Shown here: positions 7,084-19,727 of the stretch, piece by piece
Layout: each line of letters begins with the position of its first letter
Numbering within the stretch: position 1 is the stretch's first letter
IMG/VR virus record: IMGVR_UViG_3300032334_000964
Span: 1 to 35,614 of that record
Length of the DNA stretch: 35,614 bases
Source of the DNA: a virus
Direction: 5' to 3' (one strand)
Position numbers and translations under genes: made by a program
The notes under the pieces: model-generated
Database searches by the model: none
Told to the model about the DNA's origin: nothing
What the model saw: only the letters and a program-made list of their open reading frames with translations

Positions 7084-7631
7084 TGTATGGCTCTATCTAG
7101 CATGGCATGGTAAATATCATATAATCTAGATATGTCTGTATTTTCTACATATTCTCTGATCATTTCATACTCTCTTACATTCTTGCTGGATACAATATGA
7201 CCATGCTCAGTGTAGTCCTTAAGGCGACCAGACTCATAGTCTTCAGAAGTAATATCAATATTCATATGGTTGGCTAGGGACTTGATCGTTTCAATGGGGA
7301 AATTTATTAGCCTATCGTAATCTATTATAATGTCAAACTGGTCAACTATAGCCAGATCATCTGTGCCAGTAAAGTAGGCAGAGTAATCATTTAACCAAAG
7401 ACTTCTTAAGTTATTATTAACCAGTTTGTCTAAAGTAGTACTTGAGGTATCGTAGAAGTATCTCATAGAAACCTCAGATGTAAGAAACTCTACTGGGTCT
7501 CTGGCTATCGTTATCATTTTGTTATCTTGAATAGTGTGGAATCTTTCAACGAACAAACCAGTATGTTGGAGTATCCTATCTTGAAGGTAGTTAGAGCCAA
7601 CTCTAGGCAGGGTAACTATCGAATAATCCAT
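7080..7631 (-). CDS. small sulfotransferase-like protein, second copy
   Basis: 183 residues. VTLPRVGSNYLQDRI (6-20) is the phosphosulfate loop and ITIARDPVEFLTSEVSM (40-56) the 3'-phosphate motif. IDYDRLINFPIETIKSLANH parallels the other sulfotransferase (3106-3639). Both are short and share the FHTI / SHTI segment after the first motif, so they are diverged paralogues. Probably uses PAPS; acceptor unknown. Leaderless start at 7631. Confidence 0.75.
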   Translation of the reverse strand: MDYSIVTLPRVGSNYLQDRILQHTGLFVERFHTIQDNKMITIARDPVEFLTSEVSMRYFYDTSSTTLDKLVNNNLRSLWLNDYSAYFTGTDDLAIVDQFDIIIDYDRLINFPIETIKSLANHMNIDITSEDYESGRLKDYTEHGHIVSSKNVREYEMIREYVENTDISRLYDIYHAMLDRAIH

Positions 7632-7637
7632 AAATCA

Positions 7638-7643
7638 ATTCTA
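7638..7643 (-). promoter_or_regulatory. -10 box TAGAAT for sulfotransferase
   Basis: TAGAAT at 7638-7643, 6 nt before the ATG at 7631. It is back-to-back with the plus-strand promoter at 7666. Confidence 0.5.
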
Positions 7644-7665
7644 GCATATTTTGCGGGAGATAAAG

Positions 7666-7671
7666 TATAAT
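7666..7671 (+). promoter_or_regulatory. -10 box TATAAT for GIY-YIG gene
   Basis: TATAAT at 7666-7671, 6 nt before the ATG at 7678, giving a leaderless start and deciding against the TTG at 7651. Confidence 0.6.
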
Positions 7672-7677
7672 GTACAT

Positions 7678-7992
7678 ATGACCCTACTATATATACTATA
7701 CAGCCCTGTGCATAAGGCTGTCAAAATAGGGATATCTGATGTAAGCGGAAGAAGGTTTGCAGCCCATAGGACCAAGGGTTGGATACTGATTAAGTATTGG
7801 TGGTTTTCCGAACGGGATAAAGCAAGAGCAGTAGAATCCCTAGTAGTAAATACACTTACTAAGAAGTACGGACATTTCCTAGATAAGGCGGATATGCCAC
7901 AAGGCGGTTATACGGAGACATTTGATGCATCTAAAGTGACTAGACGAGGTTTGATCCGTATGGTCAATAAGGCTATTCGAGAGTGGTCGTAA
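7678..7992 (+). CDS. GIY-YIG/T5orf172 (MUG113)-like protein
   Basis: 104 residues from ATG 7678. LLYILYSPVHKAVKIGIS parallels the GIY-YIG core (YIL...KIG), and RRFAAHRTKGWILIKYWWF followed by AVESLVVNTL matches the R....E region of T5orf172-type nucleases. It would cleave or nick DNA, perhaps as a homing enzyme. It is the only plus-strand gene in the first 20 kb, as expected for a mobile insertion (inference). Confidence 0.65.
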   Translation: MTLLYILYSPVHKAVKIGISDVSGRRFAAHRTKGWILIKYWWFSERDKARAVESLVVNTLTKKYGHFLDKADMPQGGYTETFDASKVTRRGLIRMVNKAIREWS

Positions 7993-7995
7993 TCT

Positions 7996-8094
7996 TTATT
8001 TGCCCTGGCATTTTGGACACTGCTTCGTAATCTCTTTTGTGCCATAGGGAACTTGGAACATACCACCACAGTTAAAGCATAGGACATCTAGCAT
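7996..8094 (-). CDS. 32-residue zinc-ribbon peptide
   Basis: CFNCGG (6-11) and CPKC (26-29) form a minimal four-Cys ribbon. The ATG lies 2 nt after the stop of the upstream gene. Convergent with the GIY-YIG gene, 3 nt apart. Confidence 0.55.
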   Translation of the reverse strand: MLDVLCFNCGGMFQVPYGTKEITKQCPKCQGK

Positions 8095-8096
8095 AG

Positions 8097-8285
8097 TTAT
8101 CCACAGGCTACACAGTAGTATGGGACACGGAAGTTGTCCTTGTTGGTATAGATGGTTTGAGAGCATTGAGAGCATTTAATATGCCCCATAGATGGATCTT
8201 TAAGTTCCCTTTGAATTTTGAACTGCTTTGTATAATAAACCTTTGTTATATACCATGTGATTGCGATTAAGAGTAAAGTTGTCAT
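8097..8285 (-). CDS. membrane-anchored zinc-ribbon protein
   Basis: 62 residues: hydrophobic N-terminal helix (TTLLLIAITWYITKVYY), then CSQCSQTI and YCVACG, a cytoplasmic four-Cys ribbon. Its final codons and stop form a TTATCCACA DnaA box (8097-8105). The ATG at 8285 lies 6 nt after TATGAT. Confidence 0.65.
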   Translation of the reverse strand: MTTLLLIAITWYITKVYYTKQFKIQRELKDPSMGHIKCSQCSQTIYTNKDNFRVPYYCVACG

Positions 8286-8291
8286 ATAGAC

Positions 8292-8297
8292 ATCATA
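8292..8297 (-). promoter_or_regulatory. -10 box TATGAT, leaderless gene at 8285
   Basis: TATGAT at 8292-8297, 6 nt to the ATG. A DnaA box (8318-8326) covers roughly the -35 position. Confidence 0.5.
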
Positions 8298-8317
8298 TCA
8301 TATCAAGATGAACAAAG

Positions 8318-8527
8318 TTATCCACAGGCATTGATACCCTTGATAACACAGGCTTCAACACCATCTCCATATCTATGATCAAACTCTTTACCTACACTCC
8401 ATAGTTGATCATCTTGGATAACCAGATATTTATTGATAGAATCAGGATTAGCATCTCCTGCTATGCGTCCAATATGATAGGTTTTGATGAGTTTGTCATT
8501 GATGTAGATTGGGATATGTATAGGCAT
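8318..8527 (-). CDS. unknown 69-residue protein
   Basis: Starts MPIHIPIYINDKLIKTYHIG; a beta-rich small protein with YLVIQDDQLWSVGKEFDHRY in the middle. The ATG at 8527 is chosen over 8557 because of the perfect promoter. Its stop is formed by a DnaA box. Function unknown. Confidence 0.6.
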   Translation of the reverse strand: MPIHIPIYINDKLIKTYHIGRIAGDANPDSINKYLVIQDDQLWSVGKEFDHRYGDGVEACVIKGINACG

Positions 8528-8533
8528 AAAACC

Positions 8534-8562
8534 ATTGTATCGTAAAGTTATCCACATGTCAA
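8534..8562 (-). promoter_or_regulatory. promoter TTGACA-17-TACAAT containing a DnaA box
   Basis: TTGACA at 8557-8562, 17 nt, TACAAT at 8534-8539, 6 nt to the ATG. The spacer holds a perfect TTATCCACA (8548-8556 on plus), so DnaA binding would block RNA polymerase (inference). Confidence 0.75.
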
Positions 8563-8834
8563 TAAGGCAGAAATATCATAGTTATCCACAGGTTTATCCA
8601 CAGATTAATCTTACTGATTATATATTTAGACATTCTAGAAGTGGAGCATTGTGGAGGATAGTGGAGCATAGAGCATATCATAGAAGGCGTCGTAATGTCA
8701 AACCGAAAAACCTTCCTATCCCCAAACCTTCATAGCGGGGATTTTATCACAAACCTTCATATCTGTCAAACCTTAATATGCAGGGTTTGGGCATTATAGC
8801 CTATATTGTATGGTTTGTCAAGCCCTTTTGCTGC

Positions 8835-8861
8835 AAAAAAAAATCCCCCAAAACTAGGGGA
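8835..8861 (-). terminator. intrinsic terminator after gene 8953-9180
   Basis: Minus strand: TCCCC, 7-nt loop, GGGGGA, then a run of nine T. It lies 91 nt downstream of the 75-residue gene. Confidence 0.7.
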
Positions 8862-8952
8862 AAATTTGCTCATATCGTAATGTTTTTTAATAAAACTATT
8901 ATGGTTTTTCTAGAAACCAAGGAGAAATGGTTTGTTATTCTATAGGGGTTTG

Positions 8953-9180
8953 TTATTGTATGGTTTGGTCTTGATCCCCTGGGATTTCGCCTGGGGCGAA
9001 GCGGCCTGTGGCCTGCTTTTCTTCACGGGCCTGCAAAAATTCGGGGGTAAAAGTAAAGAAAGGTGACAAACCTATAGCATGTGTAACAGTAACAAATGTA
9101 TTCCACATAGAGTCAGAGAAAGCCTTATACTCTTTTGGCTGTCTTTTAGCATATTCTGCAAAATGATGTCTTGGACTCAT
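8953..9180 (-). CDS. unknown 75-residue protein in the iteron region
   Basis: Begins MSPRHHFAEYAKRQPKEYKA; basic helical N-terminus, hydrophobic centre (ITHAIGL/SPFFTFTPEFL-like), acidic Gln-rich end. Leaderless from ATG 9180 and flanked by iterons, so it could act at the array (inference). No family recognised. Confidence 0.6.
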   Translation of the reverse strand: MSPRHHFAEYAKRQPKEYKAFSDSMWNTFVTVTHAIGLSPFFTFTPEFLQAREEKQATGRFAPGEIPGDQDQTIQ

Positions 9181-9186
9181 AATACA

Positions 9187-9192
9187 ATTATA
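9187..9192 (-). promoter_or_regulatory. -10 box TATAAT for gene 8953-9180
   Basis: TATAAT at 9187-9192, 6 nt from the ATG. The region just upstream is an inverted pair of iterons (9197-9209), a likely operator. Confidence 0.55.
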
Positions 9193-9339
9193 ACATGGTT
9201 TGACAAACCTTCAAACCTATGGTATAAGGGTTTGGGGATATAAGGTTTGGATCGTAATCTTCTGGAGGGGGAAGGTTTTGGAGGTTCGTAATGTCTTTTA
9301 GAAATGAGGTTTGACAAATTGATCAATATATGGCACGTG

Positions 9340-9353
9340 GGCCCTTTCGGGCC
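9340..9353 (-). terminator. GC hairpin after gene 9359-9619
   Basis: GGCCC/GGGCC stem with a 4-nt loop directly after the stop at 9359, next to a GCACGTGG motif (9333-9340). It lacks a U-run, so terminator strength is doubtful. Confidence 0.4.
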
Positions 9354-9358
9354 AAAGA

Positions 9359-9619
9359 CTAGTCGTCTTCGAGTAGGTCCTCAATGCTTTCAAAACCTTC
9401 ATCATCAGCACCCAAACCTTCAAGGAACAAATCCCAAGTTTCGTTTATGTATTGCTCTAGTGTTGGAGTATGATTAATTATTCCCTCCGCAAATGCGAAA
9501 GCAAGTGGCAAACCTAAATCGTTGTAAATAAAGAAATCAATCCACTCTTCTTCGGCTTTGTAGTTAATCCATAGTTGTCCTAGAATTAAAGCCTTGTTCT
9601 CAAAAGTTGTTGTGGGCAT
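9359..9619 (-). CDS. unknown acidic 86-residue protein
   Basis: Strongly acidic, ending FESIEDLLEDD; the middle is hydrophobic/aromatic (WINYKAEEEWIDFFIYND). It overlaps the end of the upstream gene by 20 nt. Contains two more CAAACC copies in its coding sequence. Function unknown. Confidence 0.65.
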   Translation of the reverse strand: MPTTTFENKALILGQLWINYKAEEEWIDFFIYNDLGLPLAFAFAEGIINHTPTLEQYINETWDLFLEGLGADDEGFESIEDLLEDD

Positions 9620-9806
9620 AATTTGTACCTTCCTTAGTTTCTTTGGCTGACTCTGCTATTACCTGTAACCGATTATACACTACATAGGGTTGGGACTTGG
9701 CTAAGTATTCCCCGACCAATTCCAAATCAACTCGCAGGTCAGAAATAGTATTGCCAAGTTTATTGGCAACTTTCTCCTCATCTGTAATTCGTCTGCTTAT
9801 ACGCAT
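9600..9806 (-). CDS. unknown 68-residue protein
   Basis: From ATG 9806 with GGGAG 6 nt upstream (an in-frame upstream start at 9833 lacks a site). It begins MRISRRITDEEKVANKLGN, a charged helical protein. It forms a two-gene operon with 9359-9619 after the hairpin at 9836-9875. Confidence 0.6.
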   Translation of the reverse strand: MRISRRITDEEKVANKLGNTISDLRVDLELVGEYLAKSQPYVVYNRLQVIAESAKETKEGTNYAHNNF

Positions 9807-9823
9807 AGTTCTCCCTTGTATCC

Positions 9824-9852
9824 ATTGTATCAAAAGGTGGGGGAAAGAGCAA
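9824..9852 (-). promoter_or_regulatory. promoter TTGCTC-17-TACAAT
   Basis: -10 TACAAT at 9824-9829, -35 TTGCTC at 9847-9852, followed by a short leader carrying GGGAG. The -35 lies inside the terminator hairpin. Confidence 0.5.
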
Positions 9853-9875
9853 GCCCCACGCTTGCCCCCTCCACC
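9832..9875 (-). terminator. strong hairpin ending the 12589-to-9900 operon
   Basis: Two stacked stems on the minus strand: outer GGTGGAGGGGG/CCCCCACC with one bulge and inner GCAAGC/GCTTGC, followed by TTTT. It lies 25 nt past the stop at 9900. Confidence 0.65.
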
Positions 9876-9899
9876 CGATTAGCCTAGGTGACCCAATAC

Positions 9900-10247
9900 C
9901 TAGACTAGCGCTGGGCTATAAGCAGCCACAAATTTATCAAAGTCTACCGAAACATTGTCAGTGATAGTCTTGTTAGTGAAGTCAATGAGGATAGTTTGTT
10001 CACCTAGGTCATAGCCATCATTATCAATAGCATAGATGCCAAACCCTGTCTCCTCCATGACGCTATCTTGAATAAGATAACTAATAATCATGCGGGTGCC
10101 ATAGGATGAATCTCCTAGTCTAGGCTTAGCATGCTGCAGGGCCATTGCCAGGTCCCGCTGCCATTCTGTCTGGCCCCAGTGACTGTACAATACGACCATA
10201 GGTCCTTGCTCACTGTCTTTAAATACAAAGTTGATCCGTGCTCCCAT
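9900..10247 (-). CDS. conserved phage protein, unknown function
   Basis: 115 residues: MGARINFVFKDSEQGPMVVL, then YSHWGQTEWQRDLA, and RMIISYLIQD. I recognise the general pattern from actinophage early regions but no named domain. Its ATG overlaps the stop of the preceding gene; it is the last gene of the operon before a strong hairpin. Confidence 0.75.
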   Translation of the reverse strand: MGARINFVFKDSEQGPMVVLYSHWGQTEWQRDLAMALQHAKPRLGDSSYGTRMIISYLIQDSVMEETGFGIYAIDNDGYDLGEQTILIDFTNKTITDNVSVDFDKFVAAYSPALV

Positions 10248-12882: not shown

Positions 12883-13905
12883 TTATGCTAAAGACATAAC
12901 ATTCTGCACAACTTTTAGCAAACGATTTTTCTCTGCGTTAATTGCAGGGTCAAATCCTGATGCTGATGCAAGGATAGATTCGTTAGAACCACCACGAGCA
13001 GAACGATACCAGTCAAGGCGTTCGGTGAGTGCATTGAATGCGCCCCATGCGTTACCCGCAATCATACCATTAAATTCACCTGTGTAGATGTCGTTAATTG
13101 TATCGACCTTGTTTTCCCACTTCTTGAACGCACCCTTAGAATCCTTTTCAGGCTTTGGGTATGCAGCAAGAATGATGTCATTGAAAGACTTAGCATTGAC
13201 TTCCTTCTCGAACATAGCCTTAGCCATGATGTCGAATTCGTCCATGTAGGCATTAGCAAGACCAAGAGTTTCACGAGCAATCTGCACCTTACCTGATGCA
13301 GTTTGAGTGTGGCGAATCTTGAAAGATTGCTTGATGCCCTTATTCTTCTTACGACCTACGCCACCAAGAGCAAGGTTAAGAGTGTTAGCGCATACAACAC
13401 GAACGGGAGTAATTGAGGCTTGAATCGCAATAGAGCCGTCGTGTGATGTGTTGATGAGTAAATAAGTTTTTACCTTATCTGCAACACCGCTAGGGTCAAG
13501 AACAGTTTCACGCTCTAGTGCAAGAGAGCCGAATACAACACGACCACCCTTGATTGAGCCAGCAGTTTCCCAACGACCTCCGCCGTCTAGAATGTTATCA
13601 CCGAATGAGAATAAATCTTCATTCTGCATTACATGGTAACGCTCACCAACGACACCAAGAATGTCGGTCTGAGTGTTGTCAGTAGGATTGGTACGCAATA
13701 CATACTGATAGTTTTTGTCGCTTGTTAGATGTGAGGGGGTTTCCAAATCTTCCAGACGAACATTCCAACCATTGAGGTTTGCAGCCTCTAGCATTTGTGC
13801 GGTTGTTTTTTCTTCTGTAAATACGGTACCCAATCCATGCCAAGCGGGTTCACGGAATGATGCAAAAGATGCAACGCCGTTTTGTGTTTCTAGGTCATGT
13901 GCCAT
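12883..13905 (-). CDS. DUF932 / TIGR03299 phage-plasmid protein
   Basis: 340 residues. The start MAHDLETQNGVASFASFREP, the AWHGLG motif, VVGERYHVMQNEDLFSF and the VVCANTLNLAL segment are typical of the DUF932 family found on phages and plasmids. The biochemical role is not established; replication or anti-defence roles have been guessed. Strong SD (AAGGAG, 7 nt) and its own promoter with the TTGTCAG-N10 box. Codon use is less AT-biased than in the left arm. Confidence 0.88.
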   Translation of the reverse strand: MAHDLETQNGVASFASFREPAWHGLGTVFTEEKTTAQMLEAANLNGWNVRLEDLETPSHLTSDKNYQYVLRTNPTDNTQTDILGVVGERYHVMQNEDLFSFGDNILDGGGRWETAGSIKGGRVVFGSLALERETVLDPSGVADKVKTYLLINTSHDGSIAIQASITPVRVVCANTLNLALGGVGRKKNKGIKQSFKIRHTQTASGKVQIARETLGLANAYMDEFDIMAKAMFEKEVNAKSFNDIILAAYPKPEKDSKGAFKKWENKVDTINDIYTGEFNGMIAGNAWGAFNALTERLDWYRSARGGSNESILASASGFDPAINAEKNRLLKVVQNVMSLA

Positions 13906-18644: not shown

Positions 18645-18704
18645 GGCGTGTCGTACACAACCTCTTAAACCTATGTGGATAACCCTGTGGATAACTTTGC
18701 ACGT
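18645..18704. repeat. intergenic module with two DnaA boxes
   Basis: GGCGTGTCG at 18645-18653, TGTGGATAA at 18674-18682 and 18686-18694 (12-nt period), GCACGT at 18699-18704. Confidence 0.5.
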
Positions 18705-18713
18705 CCAAAATTT

Positions 18714-18734
18714 GAGCAGTTTTCAATCTTGCTC
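18714..18734 (-). repeat. GAGCA-loop-TGCTC hairpin, copy D
   Basis: Same stem and a near-identical loop to copy A (TTTTnnATCT), 11 nt after the stop at 18746. Confidence 0.45.
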
Positions 18735-18745
18735 AGGATCACAAT

Positions 18746-18871
18746 TTACTTTCGCAAATCGTTTTTTATTTCTTGCCAATCTTCTTTTAACATTGGTAAC
18801 ATCATTCTAAATAAAATAAAAACGCTACCCGCTAAAAATAGTTGAACGATTGTAGTTAGTAGTCTATTCAT
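18746..18871 (-). CDS. 41-residue membrane peptide
   Basis: MNRLLTTIVQLFLAGSVFIL followed by FRMMLPMLKEDWQEIK: one membrane helix and a charged tail. GGAGG 6 nt upstream fixes the ATG. Holin-like in layout, but nothing proves lysis function. Confidence 0.6.
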   Translation of the reverse strand: MNRLLTTIVQLFLAGSVFILFRMMLPMLKEDWQEIKNDLRK

Positions 18872-19028
18872 TACAAGCCTCCATAAATTTTTCCATTTTG
18901 AAATTTGGATTATCTTCTGCGAACCAAAACGCAAAGTCATCAATTAAAATATCTAGTCGGCAACTATCGCCTTTCGAATGCTTTGAGATAATTTTGGCAA
19001 CCTCTACATAGTCTTTGCGTGTCATCAT
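18864..19028 (-). CDS. small conserved protein, unknown
   Basis: 54 residues: MMTRKDYVEVAKIISKHSKG, then DFAFWFAEDNPNFKMEKFME. I believe similar short proteins occur in actinophages, but no function is known. TAATG at its start; overlaps the next gene by 8 nt. Confidence 0.65.
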   Translation of the reverse strand: MMTRKDYVEVAKIISKHSKGDSCRLDILIDDFAFWFAEDNPNFKMEKFMEACNE

Positions 19029-19285
19029 TATGCGATACCTACCAATTCTAGAAACATCTCAGTGCCCCCCTCATTGATAAAGGCAACCTGCTTTTCGATT
19101 GAAGCCCAAGATAAATCTTCAAGGTCAGGCATAAGTTCATCAATTGCACCGATGTTCATTTTGATAAACTCATCTTTGATTGAAAGAATTTGCGGTAGGT
19201 AGCGAGAATTTTCTGAAACCTTTGAAATAAACTGATAGCCCTTATGTTCAAAAGGGAAGATAGCGAATGCAACTGTATTAGTCAT
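19028..19285 (-). CDS. unknown 85-residue protein
   Basis: MTNTVAFAIFPFEHKGYQFI, then ELMPDLEDLSWASIEKQVAF. Mixed alpha/beta. Coupled by TAATG at both ends. Confidence 0.65.
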   Translation of the reverse strand: MTNTVAFAIFPFEHKGYQFISKVSENSRYLPQILSIKDEFIKMNIGAIDELMPDLEDLSWASIEKQVAFINEGGTEMFLELVGIA

Positions 19286-19470
19286 TAGAGTGTAGCCTTT
19301 CCACGAAGTGTTCCAGTAATTCCGAGAGTGTCGCAGGCGACTTTGACAGATACACCAACTGGCAATTGTGTTGGGTATGTTGATAGGAATTGAGCAACCG
19401 CACCACGAGAAGGGAGAGCGATTTTTTTTGTTGAACCATTGAAGGTTTCTAGTGTTATAGTGTAAGTCAT
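19285..19470 (-). CDS. small beta protein; paralogue of 21544-21732
   Basis: 61 residues: TITLETFNGSTKKIALPSRG, then TQLPVGVSVKVACDTLGITG. It aligns with the plus-strand gene product at 21544 (T..G.T..., LP.G..V......GI..G...G). First gene of its operon under a TTGTCAG promoter. Confidence 0.65.
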   Translation of the reverse strand: MTYTITLETFNGSTKKIALPSRGAVAQFLSTYPTQLPVGVSVKVACDTLGITGTLRGKATL

Positions 19471-19504
19471 TTTGACTACCTTTCGTTTGTTTGTTTATAG
19501 TATT

Positions 19505-19527
19505 AGTCTAGCAGTGGGGTCTGACAA
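19505..19527 (-). promoter_or_regulatory. TTGTCAG-N10-TAGACT promoter
   Basis: TAGACT at 19505-19510, 10 nt, TTGTCAG at 19521-19527; CRP-like site 19555-19570 lies 28 nt upstream. Confidence 0.55.
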
Positions 19528-19554
19528 ATTGGGCACTTATTTGCTTAGGCTCAC

Positions 19555-19570
19555 TGTGATTTGCATCACA
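19555..19570. promoter_or_regulatory. CRP/GlxR-like palindrome
   Basis: TGTGATTTGCATCACA: TGTGA-N6-TCACA, perfect arms. Confidence 0.5.
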
Positions 19571-19663
19571 TTTATTTGCTAAGGCTCATTGCTTATTTAT
19601 CTTTATTTAATTGTTATAGTATTAATACTAGCATAAAAATGTCAAAAAGTCAAGTCCAAATAC

Positions 19664-19727
19664 GGCGTGTCGTATGTGATTAATCTCACATTACTTATAC
19701 ACAGCCTGTGGATAACTTTGCACGTGC
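19664..19727. repeat. intergenic module with CRP-like site and DnaA box
   Basis: GGCGTGTCG 19664-19672, CRP-like palindrome 19675-19690, TTATACACA then TGTGGATAA 19707-19715, GCACGTGC 19720-19727. The 297 nt between 19471 and 19767 hold these signals and no gene. Confidence 0.5.
19675..19690. promoter_or_regulatory. CRP/GlxR-like palindrome
   Basis: TGTGATTAATCTCACA, perfect TGTGA-N6-TCACA. Confidence 0.55.

Follow-up and report, generated by a model that had tools for sequence, protein, structure and literature searches.

The window analysed here is a stretch of viral DNA 35,614 nucleotides long (IMG/VR record IMGVR_UViG_3300032334_000964, positions 1 to 35,614), in which an initial annotation had marked a candidate replication locus, described as DnaA boxes followed by an iteron array. 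Five perfect copies of the DnaA box TTATCCACA, all in the same direction on the plus strand, lie within 506 nt at 8097-8105, 8318-8326, 8548-8556, 8582-8590 and 8594-8602, as had been claimed. Three further perfect copies, absent from that annotation, were found on the opposite strand at 18674, 18686 and 19707; the eight copies in the whole window compare with 0.58 expected, and none of 100 shuffles reached eight. The two outlying boxes, at 8097 and 8318, contain the TAA stop codons of two minus-strand open reading frames (8097-8285 and 8318-8557, respectively), and the box at 8548 lies in the TTGACA-17-TACAAT promoter spacer of the minus-strand frame 8318-8557, in agreement with the earlier remark that boxes overlap gene ends and a promoter. 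This box is 46 bp from the last one, about four turns at 11 bp. The final two boxes, both perfect, form a tandem pair (12 bp start to start, with a gap of 3 bp) that is conserved in relatives. Beyond the pair, on the same strand, are an AT-rich DnaA-trio run of six consecutive trinucleotides with a middle T (A on the other strand), together with a TTACTGA block (8605-8622), three [AT]GTGGAG repeats at 10-bp spacing (8640-8666), and the junction sequence TCGTAATG (8690-8697), at the end of which, between 8697 and 8698, a genome terminus or terminal-repeat start is predicted. On the predicted terminal-repeat side stands an array of CAAACC/GGTTTG (8699-9313) interspersed with TCGTAA copies in one orientation.

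A homologue of phrog_1221, a family of unknown function, at 12883-13905 on the minus strand served as the synteny anchor; its protein is about 52% identical to proteins of the Streptomyces phages Navo, NootNoot and others. Relatives of this protein occur in 427 viral stretches, of which the best 80 were taken for comparison, and several of the contigs that bear it are 108-119 kb long. Judged from these sequences, the window is part of a freshwater actinophage type of 108-119 kb, with the Streptomyces BE phages as distant relatives. The host is likely actinobacterial; the pointers are a WhiB gene in one relative (G001) and the nearest named relatives, which are actinophages. The same relative codes for a cytochrome P450 (L093, 555-1739). 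The comparison set comprised the 80 loci found by homology to phrog_1221 and about 200 found by pattern. Loci with fewer than 400 nt on the box side or fewer than 1000 nt on the array side were dropped (306 to 248), and redundancy was then cut by means of shared 16-mers (248 to 117). Copies of the window (L001-L008) were left out, as were ten cellular-genome loci from the junction set, and one locus (L233) was kept in the junction set and left out of the phasing, weak-site and trio sets. In the pattern-chosen loci, positions 6, 7 and 9-15 after the box were fixed by the search, so that values of 100% at these positions arise by construction.

In the loci fetched by gene homology, two tandem copies of TTATCCACA, their starts 11 or 12 bp apart, are found again and again beside the densest CAAACC/GGTTTG cluster together with the conserved TTACTGA block. 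Each of six near-complete contigs had a single copy of the element pattern, at or beside the 1-kb bin richest in CAAACC, and the pattern was found in at least 120 stretches of viral contigs (two narrower forms gave 110 and 24, with contigs partly shared). Among 84,980 cellular genomes (257 Gb), the same pattern gave 10 matches in scattered taxa, where about 7.5 are expected from the base count. Mimicry of a host oriC at the sequence level was considered and rejected, because the element pattern is not above chance in cellular genomes. One of the ten cellular matches (L247), a contig from a 'Chitinophagaceae' bin, is 95% identical to the phage locus L041 over 510 nt and is probably a misbinned phage contig.

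The spacing of the boxes was examined in 116 non-redundant loci. The nearest partner box, with at most one mismatch, lies at 12 bp in 75 loci and at 11 bp in 38, and three loci have none. More distant perfect boxes (n = 95, within 150 bp) fall at 21-24, 32-34, 44-46, 53-56, 63-67, 77-78, 87-90, 99 and 108-111 bp. The best period for these upstream boxes is 11.0 bp with a resultant of 0.84, a value reached by none of 500 random sets; when each distance was used once, the resultant was 0.73, and none of 1000 random sets was as high. Partial box matches, taken at positions of the loci that lack a strong box, likewise gave 11 bp as the best of seven periods tried. The orientation of boxes and trios is uniform across loci.

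Trio runs were compared in an unbiased set made up of the window and of loci fetched by an unrelated gene (L009-L088), in which distinct pairs were chosen with the trio sequence ignored, and in which a pair was called array-adjacent if at least five CAAACC/GGTTTG copies lay within the next 1000 nt. Runs of at least five trios were present at 40 of 43 array-adjacent pairs, compared with 2 of 39 other tandem pairs, one of which has a TTACTGA and is possibly an origin pair put in the wrong class, and with 9.9% of shuffles; runs of at least four were present at 42 of the 43. Across the 116 loci the mean run was 6.2, against 2.8 in shuffles, a difference partly fixed by the search pattern. At the free positions 16, 19, 22 and 25 after the box, the frequency of T in the pattern-chosen loci was 0.95, 0.95, 0.74 and 0.68, respectively. 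The spacer between box and trios measures 5 nt in 91 of the 116 loci and 2 nt in 24, and AT content reaches its maximum (88%) near the far end of the second box. Copies of [AG]TGGAG are found between element and junction in relatives as well, mostly at 10-bp spacing.

The minus-strand tandem pair at 18674-18694 lies outside the origin element and is of a promoter-like type, a class without trios. Given the three opposite-strand boxes at 18674-19707, the region 8097-8602 is not the sole box cluster of the window. Other TTATCCACA pairs, 11, 12 or 41-42 bp apart, were seen at promoter-like places both in the window (18674-18694 and 19707-19715) and in L009-L088 (at about 2-6 kb and at 9.85 kb); these pairs are often fused to a CRP-like TGATG..CATCACA palindrome and mostly have no trios. 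Since TTATCCACA pairs also stand at promoter-like places in the same phages, the boxes by themselves are not proof of an origin.

The layout of the element was compared with those of bacterial origins. The trio strand and box orientation of the phage element may match those of B. subtilis. By the published search rule for the bacterial unwinding core, a box must be followed, after a spacer of 0-16 bp, by a minimum of three NAN trios (PMC8287927). In the phage element the tandem boxes are at most 3 bp apart, the spacer falls within this range and three or more NAN trios follow in succession; tandem boxes this close, a short spacer and a run of NAN trios are shared with the basal unwinding system (BUS) of bacterial oriC (B. 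subtilis incC), as are upstream boxes in helical phase. The distal box of B. subtilis acts with helical phasing (PMC6669920). The phage element differs from a BUS in that it is viral, lies beside a probable terminus and has no dnaA gene found in its relatives; its spacer is AT-rich whereas that of a BUS is GC-rich, and its trios mostly differ from the GAT consensus, which may not be the consensus of the host. The arrays of E. coli oriC have DnaA sites 2 bp apart, which gives an 11-bp register, and are flanked by an unwinding region rich in AT (PMC6727663). The phage element is similar in its 11-bp register (a 9-mer plus 2 bp) beside an AT-rich stretch, but is far smaller. Taken together, the BUS layout, the 11-bp phasing and the presence of one element per genome (6/6) lend support to the earlier proposal of a replication locus built on host DnaA boxes.

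The array side of the locus was less faithful to that proposal. The 16 CAAACC/GGTTTG copies reported in 8699-9313 are indeed there, against about 0.3 expected, and the whole window contains 54, against a shuffle mean of 19.3; an equally dense array elsewhere, which had been named as a point against the locus, was not found in the window. Iteron origins have regularly spaced direct repeats of about 17-22 bp, and no such family was found within 7400-10100. In the iteron origins of the P1, RK2 and F plasmids, DnaA boxes lie near a cluster of short repeats; the phage locus is unlike these in that its CAAACC copies are unevenly spaced, point either way and are all confined to the far side of a sharp, conserved junction and of the predicted terminus, and the description of CAAACC as an iteron was rejected on these grounds. 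Per locus, the 100-nt bin in which the element ends contains on average 0.0 copies of CAAACC and the following bin 3.4, and GGTTTG prevails further out. TCGTAA occurs almost exclusively in one orientation and on the array side in freshwater loci (8690-9290 in the window), and TTATCCACA occurs almost exclusively on the opposite side of the junction from the array, also in one orientation. Two distinct things evidently meet at about 8697/8698, a box/trio element present once per genome and a CAAACC array, and we infer that the CAAACC/TCGTAA array is the first kilobase of a terminal repeat rather than an iteron component of the origin. Six letters of the array motif CAAACCT, namely AAACCT, also occur in the DnaA box quoted for Thermotoga maritima (PMC6669920), probably by coincidence. 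TTACGA was also considered as a promoter -10 and rejected on inspection by eye.

The junction itself was examined in 117 loci. In 110 of these, 72-77 nt separate the end of TTACTGA from CGTAAT, and the other seven have no CGTAAT there. Among 41 array-side contig ends within 1500 nt, judged by hand to be true contig ends, eight fall in the first 100 nt compared with about 2.4 per 100 nt elsewhere (P = 0.003), and six fall at 64-82 nt past TTACTGA (P about 2e-5, for an interval of 62-84 nt chosen afterwards); on the box side, 1 of 14 ends falls within the first 100 nt. Two contigs, each from a separate sample, share the same last base, in GGCGT, where CGTAAT is expected. This pile-up fits a terminus, but it could also arise from assembly breaks that mixed strains cause where a conserved block ends. 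The single copy of the element in each of the six near-complete contigs is expected if assembly collapses a terminal repeat. A leftward promoter at the junction (TTGACA beside 8690) was tried as a candidate and dropped, its -35 not being common to relatives.

The physical ends of the Streptomyces relatives have been mapped from read starts, and the NootNoot repeat is given as 10,787 bp (PMC5764925), equal to the length obtained from the record (131086-120300+1). The terminal-repeat boundary is GTAATR in all nine Boydwoodruffvirinae examined. Relative to the right-repeat start, eight of the nine (NootNoot, Samisti12, Targaryen, Yaboi, Daubenski, SaltySpitoon, MulchMansion and Riptide) have an inverted TTATCCACA pair at positions -93 to -95 and -69 to -71; the ninth, Tomas, has the GTAATR boundary and no boxes. 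Because six of the eight carriers are close relatives, the independent evidence lies mainly in their agreement with two Karimacvirus members. The first 1.2 kb of the repeat holds three to six TCGTAA and no TTACGA in all eight Boydwoodruffvirinae examined for it, as on the freshwater array side; these one-way TCGTAA repeats of both phage groups may be sites for terminase or for something else. The boundary in this group, of the Stanwilliamsviridae type, thus resembles the freshwater loci in phrog_1221 synteny, in TTATCCACA on the unique side, in TCGTAA of one orientation on the repeat side and in the GTAATR junction, but differs in that its boxes are inverted and not tandem, no trios were seen and there is no CAAACC array. 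Since eight of nine of these Streptomyces relatives have their boxes a constant 69-95 bp away from where the right terminal repeat begins, 8697/8698 is probably a genome terminus.

Boxes and terminus do not always go together. Two Loccivirinae, MeganTheeKilla and Blueeyedbeauty, carry their boxes in a gap that holds no genes, about 6 kb away from the boundary, and the Rhodococcus phage Trina has one box, far from the boundary, and none near it. The Loccivirinae gap (L266, 1090-2870; L267, 1370-2880) carries TGTGGATAA boxes and GTTGAA/TTCAAC repeats, 12 of the GTTGAA type in Blueeyedbeauty, and looks origin-like too. That the box module and the terminus are separable favours a module with a function of its own. 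No trio run was seen by eye in the Streptomyces relatives, and as Tomas lacks boxes and the others have them inverted or differently placed, the wider group does not share a box-based origin throughout.

Replication genes of the relatives were also considered. The relative with the WhiB gene (G001) codes for a DnaB_C helicase, a DnaG-like primase, Pol III alpha and a RecA-like protein. A search of ten contigs for the initiator, loader and helicase families DnaA_C, DciA, IstB/DnaC and DnaB_C found DnaB_C in all ten, the C-terminal domain of DnaA in none and DciA in none; IstB/DnaC gave nothing above the cut-off in these contigs, its two sub-threshold matches falling in an open frame as long as the helicase. 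The possession of a phage helicase and polymerase, with no recognised initiator or loader, fits the use of host DnaA, and a phage initiator of unrecognised kind may be present. A GC-skew switch, proposed earlier as a check on the locus, did not appear: skew in the window is merely briefly positive, at 7-9.5 kb, and in six near-complete relatives there is no switch at the element, the extremum lying about 7-17 kb away, roughly at the gene-strand switch. The missing switch counts against an origin, although skew in these genomes seems to be governed mainly by gene strand.

On the evidence of sequence, the reading of the element as an origin that uses host DnaA is well supported, and we consider it likely that 8548-8622 is a phage origin of the bacterial oriC type, opened by host DnaA beside a probable terminus, with the array in the terminal repeat. 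Host DnaA would bind the same-direction boxes on one face of the helix, the final two in tandem, and would oligomerise from the tandem boxes onto the trios at 8605-8622, opening the AT-rich stretch; the DnaB-type helicase of the phage would then be loaded and would take over together with the phage primase and Pol III alpha, at an origin about 75-150 bp outside the probable terminus at 8697/8698. A further conjecture, which we regard as rather unlikely, is that a lytic lineage took the core of a host oriC (tandem boxes and DnaA-trios) as its own origin and set it into its terminus, so that forks fired by DnaA about 100 bp from the repeat boundary would copy the repeat and might even duplicate it, which would couple initiation with packaging.

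The boxes could also belong to the packaging or terminus machinery, with DnaA or another box-binding protein in an architectural role at the terminase cutting site and replication starting elsewhere. The fixed place of the inverted pair in eight of nine Boydwoodruffvirinae, the fixed distance from boxes to CGTAAT in 110 of 117 freshwater loci and the clustering of contig ends 64-82 nt beyond TTACTGA are all consistent with this, but compactness alone may explain a fixed distance, it is not evident what trios next to the tandem pair would do in cutting, and two Loccivirinae have boxes about 6 kb from the boundary while Tomas has a boundary without boxes; we judge this explanation to be unlikely. 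The injection stop signal of phage T5 sits inside the T5 terminal repeat, whereas the boxes of the window lie just outside the predicted repeat. That signal is described as repeat-rich and with DnaA boxes, in a phage with long terminal repeats (PMC13250531), and a repeat-rich region with DnaA boxes is common to it and the phage locus.

Quite improbable, in our estimate, is that the boxes are operators through which host DnaA governs leftward early transcription by way of the 8548 promoter and the outlying boxes. The box at 8548 does lie between -35 and -10 hexamers, and other box pairs in relatives are promoter-like and stand beside TGTGA/TCACA half-sites; against this, promoter-type pairs have trios in 2 of 39 cases compared with 40 of 43 element pairs, the TTGACA context is variable among relatives, and roles as operator and as origin could coexist. 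Very improbable is a datA-like sink in which the boxes titrate host DnaA and block host initiation: the presence of several perfect boxes in each genome, times the number of phage copies, would suit it, but some near-complete contigs have few perfect boxes (for example one in G009 and three in G008, perfect matches counted), and a sink needs neither phasing nor trios.

Judged by title or the opening lines of the abstract, none of the open-access PMC papers listed in literature searches reports a phage with DnaA-trios or a BUS, or deals with the origin of a member of this phage family. Boydwoodruffvirinae grow on laboratory Streptomyces, so that the link between boxes and terminus is directly testable. 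An origin beside the terminal-repeat boundary would bear on how long terminal repeats are copied, and the element would offer a minimal natural oriC core in more than 100 diverged versions, useful for defining what a DnaA origin requires, such as 11-bp phasing and the number of trios. If the host-DnaA origin is real, a phage group widespread in the searched metagenomes would initiate replication with the chromosomal initiator of its host and not with a phage initiator.
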